This document shows, in pieces, positions 31,757 through 55,338 of a DNA stretch of 59,662 bases. Every line of letters begins with the position of its first letter. Positions within the stretch are counted from its first letter, which is position 1. The translations under genes and the position numbers were made by a program. The stretch is from contig JAGHUJ010000005.1 in assembly GCA_018064905.1 (NCBI GenBank), positions 1 to 59,662 of the forward strand. Reading direction: 5' to 3'. Source of the DNA: Candidatus Treponema equifaecale (GTDB lineage: Bacteria > Spirochaetota > Spirochaetia > Treponematales > Treponemataceae). The notes beneath the pieces were generated by a model. That model worked only from the letters and a program-made list of their open reading frames with translations, made no database searches and was not told the origin of the DNA.

Positions 31757-31969
31757 AATTTTTTCTGGGGCTTCCCGTTTGCAAGCAAACGGTCGGGCTT
31801 TTCGGGGTTCCGCTTCCGCTCCATTCTTCCGTTCTGGAGGTTTCGACATAGGGAGCGTTAAACAAACACCTGAGAGGTGTTTGTAGCGAGTCTCCTGGAG
31901 AGCTATGCTCGTAAGTCTCAACCTCCGCCACTTCAGAACGCTTCGCGCCCCTACAATCCCTAAGCCGTT
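31757..31969. repeat. repeat-filled gap between murJ and the M24 peptidase gene
   Basis: 213 bp without a gene. The minus strand contains GGAGGTTGAG (31927-31918) and TCGAAACCTCC (31845-31835), the two ends of a REP-like palindrome. They are separated by a separate 66-bp hairpin element (31848-31913). Beyond it lies a second palindromic module with AATGGAGCGGAAGCGG (31830-31815) and a perfect stem CCGTTTGC/GCAAACGG (31777-31792). A similar module follows the ABC-F gene at 44090-44150. Repeats appear nested. Confidence 0.6.
31848..31913 (+). repeat. GAG-triloop hairpin element, copy 1
   Basis: Begins with ATAGGGAGC. A perfect 10-bp stem ACAAACACCT / AGGTGTTTGT (31862-31884) is closed by the loop GAG. 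AGCGAGTCTCC follows, then GAGAGCTATGCTCGTA at the end. The same layout occurs at 43564, 55050 and 55184 with different stem sequences. Confidence 0.7.
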
Positions 31970-41954: not shown

Positions 41955-44006
41955 ATGGCTTTTGTACAATTTTCACAGGTGTCACTGTCTTTTGGAGATC
42001 GTGACATTCTTAAAAACGTTTCTGTAAATCTTGCATCCGGCTCCAAGGCGGCTCTTACTGGTGCCAACGGAACAGGAAAATCAACCCTCATAAAAGTAAT
42101 GGCTGGTTTGGTTCAGCCTGATGAAGGCCAGCGAATTGCACAGAAGGATTCAAGAATCGCATATCTTCCACAGAGCGGACTTACTCACCACGGCTGCTCA
42201 TTGCGTGAAGAAGCTGACAAGGCTTTTGTTTTTGGATACGAACTGACAGAAGAACTTGAAAAAATCGGAGACCAGCTTAAGGAAGGTAGTGGAAATCAGA
42301 CGGCACTTTTGGAACGCCACGACAAAATCATAAACGAGCTGGAAGATTCCGGCTGGAACAGAAGAAGCGTACTTGCAGAGCAGATTTTGATTGGTCTTGG
42401 CTTTAAGCGAGAAGATTTGGACAGAAACTGCGAGGAATTTTCCGGCGGATGGCAGATGAGAATTGCATTGGCAAAGGCATTGATGGTAAATCCAGACATT
42501 CTTCTTCTTGACGAACCTACAAACTACCTTGATATTGAAGCCCGCCAATGGCTTGAAACCTTTTTGAACAATTTTAAGGGCGGATTTTTGCTGGTCAGCC
42601 ATGACCGTTACTTCCTTGACCACACAATCAACGAAGTTTACGAACTTTTTAACGGCGATTTGCACCGCTATCCTGGAAATTTTTCTCATTATGAAAAGGT
42701 TCGTGAAGTTGAACTTGAAACTTTGATTCACGAATACGAAAAGCAGCAGGATGAAATCAATCACCTTCAGGAATTTATTGACCGATTTAGATACAAGGCA
42801 ACAAAGGCAATTCAGGTTCAGGAAAGAATCAAAATGCTGGATAAAATTCTGGAAAACGAAATCGTAATTCCTGAATCGCTGAAAAAAATCCATTTTAAAT
42901 TTCCGGCAGCCCCACATTCAGGCCGACTTGTGGCAACTTTGACTGGAATTACAAAGTCCTACGACGGCCAGCGCAAGGTTATAGACAATCTGGATTTGCT
43001 TCTTGAAAACGGTGACAGACTTGTGGTTGCTGGCCACAACGGTGCTGGTAAATCTACTTTGCTCAGAATTCTGGCCGGTGTTGATCCAAATTTTGAAGGC
43101 GAAGTTAAGCTTGGTGCAGGTGTTTCAATCGGTTACTTCTCTCAGGATAATGCGGAAACCTTAAAGGGCAGTGCCACAATTCTTGAAACAATCGAAGCCG
43201 ATGCACCACTTGAACTGATTCCAAAAGTTCGAGACATGCTGGGGGCTTTCCTTTTCCGAGGAGATGATGTTTTCAAAAGCCTGGACGTACTTTCCGGCGG
43301 TGAAAAATCTCGTGTGGCTTTGCTCAAACTTCTGCTTCGTCCTGTAAACCTTCTGATTCTTGACGAACCTACAAACCACCTGGACATGCATTCCAAGGAT
43401 GTGCTTTTGAATGCGTTGAAGGATTTTGGCGGAACTGTAATTTTTGTAAGCCATGACCGTGGATTTATCGAAGATCTTTCAACACGGGTTCTGGAACTTA
43501 AGCCAGGCCAGTTCAGAACTTTCCCAGGTGACTACAAATATTACATGCAGAGGTTAACTGATGATAGGGAGCGGCCACAAAGTGGCAAAAACTCACGAGG
43601 TGAGTTTTTAGAGAGTCTGCCGAAGAGCTATGCTCGTAGGGCAAATGGCCTTGTTGGAAATGCAGAGTTGAAATCTGATGGTAATGCGGTAGTTTCGACA
43701 GGCTCAACCACCGCAACATCGAAAACAACCACCGCATCTGCCTCAAAATTGAGTTGGGAAGAAAAAAAGAAACAGGATGCTGAAAAACGCAAGGCCGAAA
43801 AACTGGTAAAGCAGCTGGAAGAAAAAATTGCAGCACTTGAAGCTGAAAAACAGGCAGAAGAAAACAAAATGGCAGATCCTGAAGTCTATTCCAACGGAGA
43901 AAAAGCCAAGGCCGTTCAAAACAAAATAACAGAATTGTCAGAACAGCTGGAAAACCTTAATATGGAATGGATGGAAGCTGCAGAAGCTTTGGAACAGTTT
44001 AGTTAA
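41955..44006 (+). CDS. ABC-F family ATPase
   Basis: 683 aa. Two ABC cassettes and no membrane segments: Walker A GANGTGKSTLIKV (about 36-48) with signature FSGGWQMRIALAKAL and Walker B LLLDEPTNYLD; second Walker A GHNGAGKSTLLRI (about 361-373) with LSGGEKSRVALLKLL and LLILDEPTNHLD. The linker between cassettes (about 250-290) is the helical region that enters the ribosome in this family. It likely acts on translation. Between cassette 2 and a C-terminal coiled coil lies a ~75-residue segment of repeat origin (about 535-600), including VVSTGSTTATSKTTTASASK and a hairpin element that keeps the frame open. Confidence 0.92.
   Translation: MAFVQFSQVSLSFGDRDILKNVSVNLASGSKAALTGANGTGKSTLIKVMAGLVQPDEGQRIAQKDSRIAYLPQSGLTHHGCSLREEADKAFVFGYELTEELEKIGDQLKEGSGNQTALLERHDKIINELEDSGWNRRSVLAEQILIGLGFKREDLDRNCEEFSGGWQMRIALAKALMVNPDILLLDEPTNYLDIEARQWLETFLNNFKGGFLLVSHDRYFLDHTINEVYELFNGDLHRYPGNFSHYEKVREVELETLIHEYEKQQDEINHLQEFIDRFRYKATKAIQVQERIKMLDKILENEIVIPESLKKIHFKFPAAPHSGRLVATLTGITKSYDGQRKVIDNLDLLLENGDRLVVAGHNGAGKSTLLRILAGVDPNFEGEVKLGAGVSIGYFSQDNAETLKGSATILETIEADAPLELIPKVRDMLGAFLFRGDDVFKSLDVLSGGEKSRVALLKLLLRPVNLLILDEPTNHLDMHSKDVLLNALKDFGGTVIFVSHDRGFIEDLSTRVLELKPGQFRTFPGDYKYYMQRLTDDRERPQSGKNSRGEFLESLPKSYARRANGLVGNAELKSDGNAVVSTGSTTATSKTTTASASKLSWEEKKKQDAEKRKAEKLVKQLEEKIAALEAEKQAEENKMADPEVYSNGEKAKAVQNKITELSEQLENLNMEWMEAAEALEQFS
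43564..43638 (+). repeat. GAG-triloop hairpin element, copy 2 (in ABC-F frame)
   Basis: Begins ATAGGGAGC. A 5-bp stem GCCAC/GTGGC with loop AAA is followed by a 10-bp stem AAAAACTCAC / GTGAGTTTTT (43587-43609) with loop GAG. AGAGAGTCTGCC follows, then AAGAGCTATGCTCGTA. Length is 75 bp, a multiple of three, so the ABC-F frame is kept through it (DRERPQSGKNSRGEF...). Confidence 0.7.
43688..43712. repeat. REP-like palindrome, copy 5 (in ABC-F frame)
   Basis: GGTAGTTTCGACAGGCTC followed by AACCACC, in the same frame as in murJ, so it again encodes VVSTGSTTA. It lies 50 bp after the hairpin element. Confidence 0.75.
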
Positions 44007-51113: not shown

Positions 51114-52868
51114 ATGGCAGAAAATGAAAAATTACAGATCGTACGCCATTCATGCGCACATGTTATGGCCGAAGCAATCAAAAATCTTTTTCCAGGAACT
51201 AAAATCGCAATCGGTCCTGCTATCGACAACGGTTTTTACTACGATTTTGACTTTCCAACCGACCATAAAATCACCGAAGCTGACTTTCCAGCTGTAGAAA
51301 AGGAAATGCGTAAAATTCTTGCATCTGGCGCTGAATTTGTTCGTAAAGAAGTTTCTAAAGAAGAAGCCCTCAAGATTTTTGCTGATGAACCATACAAGGT
51401 TGAACTTATCAATGACTTGCCTGCTGATGCAGTAATCTCAACATACGAACAGGACGGCTACCTTGATCTTTGCCGTGGTCCACATGTTGCAACTACAAAA
51501 GAAATCAACGGTCAGGCATTTAAATTGGACAAGCTTGCCGGTGCTTACTGGCGCGGCGACTCTGACCGTCCAATGCTTACTCGTGTTTATGCACTTTGTT
51601 TTGAAAAGCCAAATGATCTTAAAGACTATCTTAAAATGATTGAAGAAGCTGAAAAGCGTGACCACCGTAAGCTTGGAATTGAAATGGATCTTTTCCATCT
51701 TGATCCAGAAAACCCTGGTCAGACTTACTGGCATCCAAACGGATGGACTATTTATACAACAATGCAGGATTACATGCGCAAAATGGTTCGCCGCGACGGT
51801 TACCAGGAAGTTAATACTCCTGCAATCATGCCACGCACTCTCTGGGAACGCTCTGGTCACTGGGGACACTATCAGAAAAACATGTTCATTACTGAATCTG
51901 AAAAGCGTCTCTTTGCCATTAAGCCAATGAACTGTCCTGGTGCTTTGGAAATCTTCAAGAGCCGCCAGAGATCTTATAAAGATTTGCCACTTCGTCTTGC
52001 TGAATTTGGTCACGATACCCGCAACGAACCTTCTGGAACTTTGCATGGTGTAATGCGTGTTCGTGGCTTCGTTCAGGATGATGCACATATTCTTTGTACT
52101 GAAGAGCAGGTTTGTTCAGAAGTTGCAAAATTCTGTAAGCTTCTCAAGAATGTTTACCACGCATTCGGTTTTGATGAGCTTGTTGTTAAATTCTCTACAA
52201 TGCCTGAAGATCACGTTGGTGATTTGGCAACTTGGGAAAGAGCTGAAAAGGCTTTGTCTGATGCTTGTCACGAAGCAGGTCTTGAATATGAAATCCAGCC
52301 GGGAGAAGGTGCTTTCTACGGTCCAAAACTTGAATTCAAGCTTTACGACTGTCTTGGCCGTGAATGGCAGTGTGGTACAATTCAGGCTGACTTCCAGCTT
52401 CCATCTGCTGAACGCCTTGATGCAACTTACATTGGTGCAGACAACCAGAAGCATCATCCTGTAATGCTTCACCGCGCAATTCTCGGTTCATTCGAACGCT
52501 TCCTTGGTATTCTCATTGAAAACTTTGCCGGAGCTTTCCCAACATGGCTTGCTTTTGAACAGGCTGCTGTTGTTCCTGTTACAAATGAATTTGATGACTA
52601 TGCAAAAGAAGTTCAGGAAGCTTTGGTTGGAGCTGACATCCGTGCAAATGCTTACCTTTCTTCTGACAACATGCGTACAAAAATCAAGACAATCACAAAG
52701 GAACACAAAACTCCTTATATTTTGATTGTTGGTGAAAACGAAAAGAAAGAAAAAACAGTTTCAGTTCGCTTCCGCCAGAGTTCAGGCCTTGAACAGAAGA
52801 CAATGAAGCTTGAAGAATTCATCGCATACGTTCAGGACAAAGTAAACAACCACGTTGTTGGTATTTAA
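51114..52868 (+). CDS. thrS: threonyl-tRNA synthetase lacking TGS domain
   Basis: 584 aa against 642 in E. coli. The N-terminal TGS domain is missing and the protein starts at the editing domain ([12 protein letters not shown], the HxxxH metal site, about 11-22; LCRGPHV at about 118). The class II catalytic core has motif 2 [33 protein letters not shown] (about 296-328) and motif 3 ([20 protein letters not shown], about 450-469). The C-terminal anticodon-binding domain is at about 485-580. It charges tRNA-Thr; a tRNA-Thr gene lies 2.4 kb downstream. Shine-Dalgarno AAGAAGGG, and the promoter -10 TATAAA is about 40 bp upstream. Confidence 0.95.
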
Positions 52869-52950: not shown

Positions 52951-53505
52951 ATGATTTTACATATCAACTGCTGTACAAGAAAAGAATCCAGGACTAAAAG
53001 ACTTGCGAATGCATTGCTTGAAAAACTTAACGGCGAAGTAGAGGAAGTGAATCTCTATCAGCAGAACTTGTCTCCAATGACAGAGGATAAGCTGTTCAGA
53101 CGCTCTGAACTTTCTCAAAAGAAGGCATTTTCAGATGATATTTTTAAGTTTGCCCGTCAGTTTGCTCAGGCTGATACAATCGTAGTTTCGGTTCCTTTCT
53201 GGGATTTGTCTTTTCCTGCTGTGCTAAAGCTTTATGTTGAAAACATTTATGTGACGGGACTTGTAACTGAATATGACAAAAACGGGAATCCACATGGACT
53301 TTGCAAGGCTAAGAAACTGTATTATGTTGCAACTGCAGGGGGTGCATTTAATCCAAAATACTCGTTTGAATATTTGAAAGACCTTGCCCAGAATTATTTT
53401 GGAATCAAAGACGTTGAGCTTATCGCTGCAGAAAAGCTTGATATTGAGGGAATGGATTCAGAGAAAATTCTGGAAGCGACAATTGCAGAAATAAAAGCCA
53501 ACTAA
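52951..53505 (+). CDS. FMN-dependent NADH azoreductase / quinone reductase-like
   Basis: 184 aa. Flavodoxin-like fold: N-terminal FMN-phosphate loop HINCCTRKESRTKRLANALLEKL (about 4-26), then VVSVPFWDLSFPAVLKLYVENIYVTG (about 70-95), which matches the azoreductase 'P.yn..iPa.LK.wiD.i...g', and LYYVATAGGAFN (about 120). It reduces quinones or azo compounds with NAD(P)H. The last codons (IKAN, stop) lie inside a 35-bp copy of a tRNA-Thr 3' end (53493-53527), so its C-terminus may have been replaced when that sequence arrived. GAGG Shine-Dalgarno seven bases before the ATG. Confidence 0.85.
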   Translation: MILHINCCTRKESRTKRLANALLEKLNGEVEEVNLYQQNLSPMTEDKLFRRSELSQKKAFSDDIFKFARQFAQADTIVVSVPFWDLSFPAVLKLYVENIYVTGLVTEYDKNGNPHGLCKAKKLYYVATAGGAFNPKYSFEYLKDLAQNYFGIKDVELIAAEKLDIEGMDSEKILEATIAEIKAN

Positions 53506-53527
53506 CGGACTTGAACCGTTGACCTGC
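53493..53527 (-). repeat. tRNA-Thr 3'-end copy A
   Basis: 35 bp identical at 34 positions to 54996-55030. It shares the T-arm and acceptor 3' half of the intact tRNA-Thr at 55267. It contains the stop codon of the azoreductase gene. With the copy at 54996 it brackets the AAA-DUF234 gene. Confidence 0.8.
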
Positions 53528-53547
53528 AAGGTCCTTTAAGGTTACAA

Positions 53548-53586
53548 TTTACTCGAATATAACCGACTCGATTTTATCCGAGTAAA
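53548..53586 (+). promoter_or_regulatory. repeat operator upstream of the AAA-DUF234 gene
   Basis: Two 15-bp direct repeats, ACTCGAATATAACCG (53551-53565) and ACTCGATTTTATCCG (53566-53580), abut. TTTACTCG (53548-53555) and CGAGTAAA (53579-53586) form an inverted repeat around them. The gene's AAAGG Shine-Dalgarno and ATG follow directly. The site looks like a regulator-binding region, perhaps autoregulatory. Confidence 0.5.
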
Positions 53587-53598
53587 AAGGCAGTTTTT

Positions 53599-54996
53599 AT
53601 GGTAGGTGAAGAAGTATTTTTAGGCAGAGACGAGCAGATAAAGACAATTGAAAAGTTTTTATCCTCAGACAAAAATAATGCCGCTTTGATTTTTGGCCGT
53701 CGTCGTGTTGGCAAGACTGAATTAATCAGGCACTGTTTAAAACGCTCGAATTATTCTTCAATATACTATGAATGCAAGGAAACGACTGAAGCTAACAATG
53801 TTGAAACTCTGTCTGAAATAGTTGCAGAGGCTTTTGATCTTCCTCCATTGTTTTTTTCATCTTTTGAAGCAATCCTTACTTTTCTTTACAAGCAGGGTTC
53901 TGAAAAAGAATTGGTTCTCGTAATTGATGAATATCCTTATATCAGAAATGTAGTTAAAGGCCTTGATAGTATAATTCAAAATCTAATTGACAATAATAAA
54001 AACAGATCAAAGTTAAAGTTGATAGTTTGTGGTTCCTATGTAGAAACAATGAAATCCCTTCTTTTTGAAGAGAATCCTCTTTTTGGTCGATTCGATTTGG
54101 TAATGAATCTCAAGGCCATGGATTATTTTGAAGCTTCGCTTTTTTATAAAGGTTTCAATAACGAAGATAAAATTCGTTTGTATTCAGTTTTTGGTGGAAT
54201 ACCTTATTACAACAGACTTGTAGACTCTTCAAAGTCTGTTAAGCAGAATATTATTGATTTAATAGCAAGTTCTGGATGTCGCTTTGAAAATGAAGTTCAA
54301 ATGCACTTGAAATCAGAAATTTCAAAAATGGTGAATGCTTATGAAGTTTTTGAAGCTCTTGCAAAGGGGTATGTCAGGTTTAGTGATATTTTGTCTCAGT
54401 CAAAGGTTTCAAGTTCTCCAACTCTTGCGGATGTCCTTGAAAAACTTATTCTAATGGATGTGGTTGCAAAGGAGTCTCCGATAAATGACGAAAACAACAG
54501 AAAAAAAACAGGGTATTATGTTTCTGACCAGATGACTCTGTTTTATTTCAAATACATTTTTAGAAATCTTTCCAGATTGGCTGTTATGGAGTCAGAAAGT
54601 TTTTATGACAAATTCATTGCCCCTGATTTTGAAGGACACTATGTTCCAAAGGCTTTTGAGCAGGTTTGCAGACAGTTTTTGATTAGGAAAAATCGTTCTG
54701 GGGAACTGGAAGAGTCTTTCGAAAAAATAGGGAAGTATTACTATGATGATCCTATAAATCACAAAAATGGTGAATTTGATGTGGTTACTGAAAATGATGG
54801 CGGGTATGTATTCTATGAAGCAAAATTTAGGGATGAAAAAATTGACAAAAGTTTGATTTTGGAAGAAATAAATCAAGTAAATGCAACAGGTTTATTCTGC
54901 AAAAAATATGGATTTTTTTCAAAGACTGGTTATAAGGAAATGGAAGAAGACTTCAAGAAAAATCTGATTCTTTACAGTATGGATGATTTGTTTTAA
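53599..54996 (+). CDS. AAA ATPase with DUF234 nuclease-like domain
   Basis: 465 aa. Walker A ALIFGRRRVGKTELIRH (about 29-45), Walker B LVLVIDEYPYIRN (about 109-121), a sensor LIVCGSYVETMKS, then a winged-helix-like segment and a C-terminal DUF234 domain with PD-(D/E)XK features: NGEFDVVTENDGG (about 393-405) and YVFYEAKFRDEK (about 406-417). Cellular role unknown; the family is frequent in mobile and accessory DNA of gut anaerobes and archaea. It is unusual that the gene lies between two 35-bp copies of a tRNA-Thr 3' end, its stop codon touching the second copy. This suggests it arrived or moves as a unit. Related in design to the AAA-DUF4143 gene at 13287. Confidence 0.85.
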   Translation: MVGEEVFLGRDEQIKTIEKFLSSDKNNAALIFGRRRVGKTELIRHCLKRSNYSSIYYECKETTEANNVETLSEIVAEAFDLPPLFFSSFEAILTFLYKQGSEKELVLVIDEYPYIRNVVKGLDSIIQNLIDNNKNRSKLKLIVCGSYVETMKSLLFEENPLFGRFDLVMNLKAMDYFEASLFYKGFNNEDKIRLYSVFGGIPYYNRLVDSSKSVKQNIIDLIASSGCRFENEVQMHLKSEISKMVNAYEVFEALAKGYVRFSDILSQSKVSSSPTLADVLEKLILMDVVAKESPINDENNRKKTGYYVSDQMTLFYFKYIFRNLSRLAVMESESFYDKFIAPDFEGHYVPKAFEQVCRQFLIRKNRSGELEESFEKIGKYYYDDPINHKNGEFDVVTENDGGYVFYEAKFRDEKIDKSLILEEINQVNATGLFCKKYGFFSKTGYKEMEEDFKKNLILYSMDDLF

Positions 54997-55030
54997 AAAG
55001 CCAACTAACGGACTTGAACCGTTTACCTGC
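54996..55030 (-). repeat. tRNA-Thr 3'-end copy B
   Basis: Begins at the last base of the AAA-DUF234 stop codon. The 35 bp are identical to copy A except for one base, and the first 31 or so match the 3' end of the intact tRNA-Thr (55264 onward). Confidence 0.85.
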
Positions 55031-55049
55031 GTCAAAATCACAGATTTTG

Positions 55050-55110
55050 CCGAGACTCGCTTTTCAACTCATCTCATGAGTTGAATTGCCTTCGGCAACC
55101 AGCTCCCTAT
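55050..55110 (-). repeat. GAG-triloop hairpin element, copy 3
   Basis: 61 bp. On the minus strand: ATAGGGAGC; stem TTGCC/GGCAA with loop GAA; stem TTCAACTCAT/ATGAGTTGAA with loop GAG (55063-55085); GCGAGTCTCGG. It lies in the second 134-bp unit. Confidence 0.75.
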
Positions 55111-55183
55111 CTTTACGAGGGTATTGCAGTTAAGCCGTTTGTCGGACTCGAACCAACTACCTGCGTCAAAATTACAGATTTTG

Positions 55184-55244
55184 CCGAGACTCGCCTACAA
55201 ACTCATCTCATGAGTTTGTTCGTCTTCAACGACCGGCTCCCTAC
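55184..55244 (-). repeat. GAG-triloop hairpin element, copy 4
   Basis: 61 bp. On the minus strand: GTAGGGAGC; stem TCGTT/GACGA with loop GAA; stem ACAAACTCAT/ATGAGTTTGT with loop GAG (55197-55219); GCGAGTCTCGG. Compared with copy 3, several stem positions changed in pairs. Confidence 0.75.
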
Positions 55245-55266
55245 GTTACGAGGGCGTTTTGATAAA

Positions 55267-55338
55267 GCCAACTAACGGACTTGAACCGTTTACCTGTTCT
55301 TTACGAGGGAACTGCTCTACCTGGTGAGCTAAGTTGGC
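55267..55338 (-). tRNA. tRNA-Thr (anticodon CGT)
   Basis: 72 nt with a complete cloverleaf on the minus strand: acceptor GCCAACT/AGTTGGC, D-stem GCTC/GAGC, anticodon arm with loop CTCGTAA (anticodon CGT, reads ACG), variable loop AGGTA, T-stem AACGG/CCGTT with loop TTCAAGT. The bottom anticodon pair is a C-A mismatch. CCA is not encoded and the base after the acceptor strand is T. Promoter on the minus strand: TTGACG (55376-55371), 17 nt, TAATTT (55353-55348). Two tRNA-end/hairpin units and the AAA-DUF234 gene lie directly beyond its 3' end. Confidence 0.93.

Follow-up and report, generated by a model that had tools for sequence, protein, structure and literature searches.

An array of tRNA 3' ends downstream of tRNA-Thr

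The window analysed in this study is the whole stretch from position 1 to 59,662 (59,662 nucleotides) of contig JAGHUJ010000005.1, assembly GCA_018064905.1, from Candidatus Treponema equifaecale. On its minus strand, an intact tRNA-Thr gene is followed by two short units and a 1.5-kb unit, each closed by the 3' end of a tRNA, hereafter called a tail. The source genome is a 223-contig draft; the array does not reach the ends of its contig, yet tandem repeats can be misassembled. Reading away from the tRNA, the features are as follows.

55266 to 55338, minus strand: intact tRNA-Thr(CGT), the anchor of the array (ARAGORN; Rfam tRNA, 57.6 bits)
55244 to 55265, minus strand: start of unit 1, a linker and an anticodon-arm-like copy, CCCTCGTAACG (from the sequence)
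55164 to 55243, minus strand: body of unit 1, the palindromic dispersed repeat R1 (R1 model, 92 bits)
55132 to 55163, minus strand: tail of unit 1, T-arm and acceptor of a diverged, foreign-type tRNA-Thr (similar T-arms in tRNA-Thr of other species)
55110 to 55131, minus strand: start of unit 2, an anticodon-arm-like copy, CCCTCGTAAAGA (from the sequence)
55030 to 55109, minus strand: body of unit 2, the palindromic dispersed repeat R1 (R1 model, 99.9 bits)
54998 to 55029, minus strand: tail of unit 2, a copy of the genome's own tRNA-Thr from the variable loop to the 3' end (31/32 against the tRNA)
53599 to 54996, plus strand: AAA ATPase_2 and DUF234 gene, 465 aa, the body of the 1.5-kb unit (Pfam PF01637, PF03008; PADLOC PDC-S27)
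53548 to 53587, plus strand: operator-like inverted-repeat block, ACTCGA..CCGACTCGA..CCGAGT (conserved 5' of orthologs in Treponema and other phyla)
53493 to 53527, minus strand: far tail, an own-type tRNA-Thr 3' end (34/35 against the copy at 54996; 30/32 against the tRNA)

The original prediction held that the 3' strand of the tRNA recurs at distances of 133, 134, and 1503 bp. The repeat analysis of the window recovered exactly these spacings in repeat family D2, with members at 53488, 54991, 55125, and 55258. The predicted near-identity of the far tail and the unit 2 tail was also confirmed (34/35, or 97% over 35 bp, between 53493-53527 and 54996-55030). The last 32 nt of tRNA-Thr were found again downstream with one and two mismatches (31/32 and 30/32), and exact matches to its last 19 nt were present at +249 and +1752. 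Of 4000 19-mers in a random control, only 4 recurred with <=2 mismatches, over a span of 1200 bp that was shorter than that of the window test. Two of the three tails are thus of the own type, but the third, at 55132-55163, is a diverged, foreign-type T-arm: it was 62% identical to the reference copy and resembles the tRNA-Thr T-arms of other species of the genus. No second copy of this tail was present elsewhere in the genome, and the own tRNA was rejected as its source on that ground.

Both short units open with a copy of the anticodon arm (CCCTCGTAA), which indicates that each is the 3' half of a tRNA into which a repeat has inserted. The homology between the two short segments noted earlier was borne out since both hold R1; however, they are not cassettes, but partial tRNA copies with R1 inside. 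At the other end of the array, the stop codon of the azoreductase gene (TAA, 53503-53505) lies inside the far tail, and that of the ATPase gene (54994-54996) abuts the next tail, as had been noticed. The final codons and the stop of the azoreductase gene (52951-53505) are encoded by the tRNA tail, and the insertion may therefore have replaced the original 3' end of this gene. Two genes to the left of the array, the gene at 51114-52868 appears from its translation to encode a threonyl-tRNA synthetase, close to tRNA-Thr. When the other tRNAs of the genome were checked for tails, only tRNA-Asn on contig C107 gave a result, an antisense T-arm followed by R1. A hit at a tRNA-Gly was rejected because the match was the neighboring tRNA-Gly gene.

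The hallmark of the tRNA-linked repeats (TLRs) of Escherichia coli is a series of tandem units 3' of a tRNA, each ending in an 18-19 bp copy of the tRNA 3' end (PMC8144298). The window array lies directly 3' of a tRNA on the same strand and, like the E. coli TLRs, including the 178-bp repeats of tyrT/tyrV, is made of tandem units with tRNA 3' ends; the match to the end of the tRNA is 19/19 at +249 and +1752, the unit 1 tail being diverged. It differs in that its tails are longer (32-35 bp compared with 18-19 bp), in that its bodies are R1 and a gene, and in that no match to the Rfam family RtT (RF00391) was found in the window. No other Rfam family matched the window units either. As a positive control, our exact-tail test recovered the 178-bp series at E. 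coli tyrV.

R1 is a dispersed palindromic repeat

R1 is a palindromic repeat of ~80 nt that forms three hairpins with compensatory changes. It has 22 copies in its own genome, partly as tandem pairs, and was found in 36 of the 59 genomes of the genus, with a maximum of 76 copies. Most copies are not at tRNAs. Two more were found in the window, at 31849-31916 and 43565-43641, distant from any tRNA. Several R1 copies are housed in another repeated hairpin, of which uninterrupted versions exist (GGTTTCGACA/GGCTCAACC), and no target duplication was evident where R1 had inserted into other palindromes. With both filled and empty hairpin sites and no evident target duplication, R1 behaves as a mobile repeat. 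It shares these features with REP/PATE-type repeats, which are likewise short, multi-hairpin, and dispersed and lie in other palindromes without evident target duplication; as a dispersed palindrome with precise empty sites, R1 resembles this type. Since it is dispersed and located mostly elsewhere than at tRNAs, R1 was rejected as an ordinary TLR body. At tRNAs, R1 follows tRNA-Asn in its own genome and splits the tail of tRNA-Leu in genome G028. Copies of tRNA tails broken up by R1 were found in three species (the window, G051, and G028).

The long unit carries a single, horizontally mobile gene

Between its tails, the 1503-bp unit has DUF234 as its sole plausible gene, in line with the expectation that the long segment is exactly one gene. 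The encoded ATPase matched the PADLOC candidate defence family PDC-S27 (9e-45), and no relative was found in the PDB by sequence. Relatives with 67-80% identity occur in scattered Treponema, and others with 48-64% identity occur in Lachnospiraceae, Selenomonadales, Collinsella, Succinivibrio, and further groups; this scattered distribution points to horizontal transfer. The block at 53548-53587 upstream of the gene is a triple inverted repeat that is conserved in relatives from Firmicutes, Actinobacteria, Proteobacteria, and Chloroflexi. The block looks operator-like and appears to move together with the gene, and the protein may autoregulate its expression through its winged-helix-like middle part. 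At locus L091 (G091:C23, ~1501-1526), we observed the operator hairpin with no detectable DUF234 gene; its flanks are similar to the ones around the occupied G001 locus, and it is a possible empty site. As a tRNA-bound gene in general, DUF234 was rejected because most of its relatives are away from tRNAs.

A direct repeat of a tRNA 3' end flanking a mobile gene is also a feature of the integrative elements that tyrosine recombinases place at such ends. The DUF234 segment could be the remnant of such an element, one that had used the 3' end of tRNA-Thr as its attB and whose attachment-site copies are the tails at 53493 and 54998, the integrase having been lost. This is a serious rival, compatible with a TLR reading of the short units, and we regard it as quite possible, if somewhat doubtful on balance. 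It would account for the 34/35 direct repeat around the segment. It also agrees with the situation in Treponema berlinense, where the DUF234 ortholog lies beside the 3' half of a tRNA-Met and a tyrosine recombinase gene, with Jet-like and restriction genes nearby (as read from their translations), with a near-identical junction by a tRNA-Gly in CAMDZB, and with the PADLOC assignment as a defence candidate. However, the 1.5-kb segment holds one gene only, no integrase gene was found between the attachment-site-like tails or elsewhere in the array, what the other tails delimit is repeats and not an element, and most DUF234 loci are away from tRNAs. Moreover, in T. berlinense the integrase and DUF234 have the tail between them, which may put the gene outside that element. 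One of the two schemes proposed originally, successive insertion at a tRNA 3' end, is possible for the DUF234 segment only, through a site-specific integrase.

tRNA-Thr loci of other Treponema genomes

In T. berlinense (G018), the order of tRNA-Thr, MATE, and dGTPase-like genes is the same as in the window, and the site is empty: the next gene directly follows tRNA-Thr. Among 70 tRNA-Thr loci of the genus, an exact 21/21 copy of the own tRNA 3' end was found downstream at 15 (the window counted), in one to three copies, mostly 150-210 bp away; at the other 55, the exact tail was absent. The array is thus lineage-specific: empty sites, which the original prediction had suggested looking for, exist, and the same repeats in all relatives, which would have spoken against it, were not seen. 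It had also suggested looking for different genes between the repeats, and the tails do enclose different bodies, genes included. In G120, the space between tRNA-Thr and an exact tail is occupied by a gene pair that is VapBC-like, as named from its translation. In G051, one unit downstream of tRNA-Thr contains an antisense T-arm and then, as in the window, R1 behind an anticodon-arm copy, and the next one is a canonical unit with the class-A element described below; R1 therefore sits in the same slot as the class-A body. A second type of body ('class B'), which includes a terminator hairpin as well as a tRNA-like stretch in antisense, was observed between tRNA-Thr tails at L165, L168, and L171 (G045, G104, and G145). 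Among the genomes compared, no close relative of the window species was found that could polarise the events.

A structured element at tRNA genes across Treponematales

Class A is an element of ~130 nt that opens with an antisense T-arm and closes with the T-arm and acceptor of the adjoining tRNA in sense orientation; in most cases, a hairpin resembling a terminator comes next. Its ends follow the neighboring tRNA. Of the 149 genomes of the order, 96 contained it, as did 42 of the 62 genera. At the 30 class-A loci of the genus (a count that includes some tRNA-Thr loci used in model building), a tRNA on the same strand was located upstream at 25 and a tmRNA at 2 more; the tRNAs were those for Thr, Ala, Glu, Met, Ser, Gly, Pro, and Asn. 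At the order level, 19 of the 27 loci examined had a tRNA upstream. No description of tRNA repeats in spirochaetes was found in the open-access literature, and a search of Rfam, which finds RtT in the E. coli control, gave no match for class A.

Covariation in class A is strong. In an alignment of 74 sequences, 95% of the cells were paired, and 32 of 36 pairs had changed on both sides, counts that lean towards the model because the alignment was fitted to it. The covariation score was 0.70, compared with 0.18 in shuffles. Covariation of the closing helix is expected in any case, as the two ends of the element are copies of the tRNA, and it is the inner helices that are telling. When the cores were compared, pairs at the same tRNA were more alike than expected by chance (0/1000 shuffles), and pairs from the same genome were not (p 0.14). 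For 34 of 52 cores, the nearest neighbor shared neither the tRNA nor the genome. Movement of class A between tRNA genes is suggested, not proved, by these comparisons, which are confounded by close species and functional constraint.

The covariance model of class A (R2/R3) had no match in the window, and a class-A body was therefore rejected there. The window units lack both the antisense T-arm and the terminators of canonical class-A units, and their tails start at the anticodon arm, whereas those of class A start at the T-loop.

Class A resembles CsrA-binding RNAs of E. coli

The two main hairpin loops of class A contained GGA in 54 and 47 of 59 distinct sequences, respectively, and the mean number of GGA motifs per element was 5.7, compared with 3.9 in dinucleotide shuffles. 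The ACA-GGA-type loop is similar to the CsrA consensus. CsrA was encoded in all of the genomes tested (14/14). No GGA was found in the hairpin loops of R1, which read GAA, GAG, and TGT.

The TLRs of E. coli have been known since 1978, but a function came to light only when three of them proved to bind CsrA (PMC8144298). These RNAs, RrA, RrB, and RrF, lie between dual terminators and are produced by read-through (PMC8144298). When the class-A model (74 elements) was run on 220 kb of E. coli sequence, including four 50-kb control stretches, the loci rrA, rrB, and rrF took ranks 1 to 3. Their scores were weak (15.8-17.2 bits, E 0.02-0.05), so common descent with class A is not proved. The agreement in place, structure, and loops is nevertheless striking: both are structured RNAs between two terminators with GGA motifs, although RrA, RrB, and RrF follow 5S rRNA and class A follows a tRNA or tmRNA. 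A body of this kind is present as class A in the relatives, whereas the window array is without one. The fifth and weakest match in the 220 kb was inside csrB (L418, 24400-24420; 8.1 bits, E 6.8), possibly by chance.

A probable derived TLR array

We consider it likely that the window holds a TLR array of derived form, where R1 and a mobile gene have taken the place of the class-A body. This reading is supported by the repeats, by their recurrence across the genus and the order, and by tails that follow the neighboring tRNA, and there is evidence for the mobility of both R1 and the DUF234 gene. The role of the tRNA 3' end as a recurring joint, as originally suggested, is supported as well. We infer an order of events, a mechanism of duplication and recombination, and a function for the RNA as follows. 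The 3' part of the tRNA would be copied partially and in series downstream, with each copy closing a body. In related Treponematales, the usual body is the ~130-nt structured RNA, flanked by two terminators; read-through transcription that begins at the tRNA probably produces it, and it probably titrates CsrA. In the window, R1 would have inserted at the boundary between the variable loop and the T-stem of the tRNA fragments in two units, and the third unit would have been filled by the horizontally mobile DUF234 ATPase gene. As the recurring joint, the tail could allow tandem duplication of units and the entry of new bodies between tails, leaving the tRNA unharmed. The R1 unit next to a class-A unit at tRNA-Thr of G051 may illustrate how the window array arose.

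Alternatively, the tRNA 3' half could have been duplicated in tandem neutrally, with R1 and the gene inserted later at random, so that tails and bodies are unlinked. The dispersal of R1, mostly off tRNAs, fits such a history, as do window units without terminators and antisense T-arms. We find it unlikely, since R1 interrupts tail copies in three species and exact own-tRNA tails are found at Thr, Ala, Glu, Met, Gly, tmRNA, and other genes. An integron-like cassette array with the T-arm as an attC-like joining site, the second scheme of the original prediction, is highly improbable despite ordered units ending in the same joint and genes as bodies in the window and G120, because the units show homology to structured RNAs or dispersed repeats and not to cassettes, the tails, as copies of tRNAs, vary with the tRNA concerned, and the array has no integrase; the closest match is the TLR class.

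Taking the derived TLR array together with the class-A data, we tentatively put forward a broader view, which we hold to be possible though less likely than not: an order-wide family of small RNAs related to RrA, RrB, and RrF might reside at tRNA and tmRNA genes of Treponematales, move between tRNA genes while adopting the 3' end of each host, titrate CsrA in step with tRNA transcription, and offer its tails as docking places for mobile repeats and single genes. A TLR architecture in another phylum, at tRNA genes of many kinds, with a covarying RNA, CsrA-type loops, and ends that follow the tRNA, makes the function and origin of TLRs testable. Genes can occupy the slot too: in the window it contains the gene of an ATPase that is a defence candidate, and in a relative a toxin-antitoxin-like gene pair.

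In the genome of the window species itself, the class-A model gave a single, weak hit (26 bits), a degenerate remnant at 1025-1178 of L257 (G000:C198). There, a tRNA-like tail and a terminator are followed by what seems to be another AAA-family ATPase gene.
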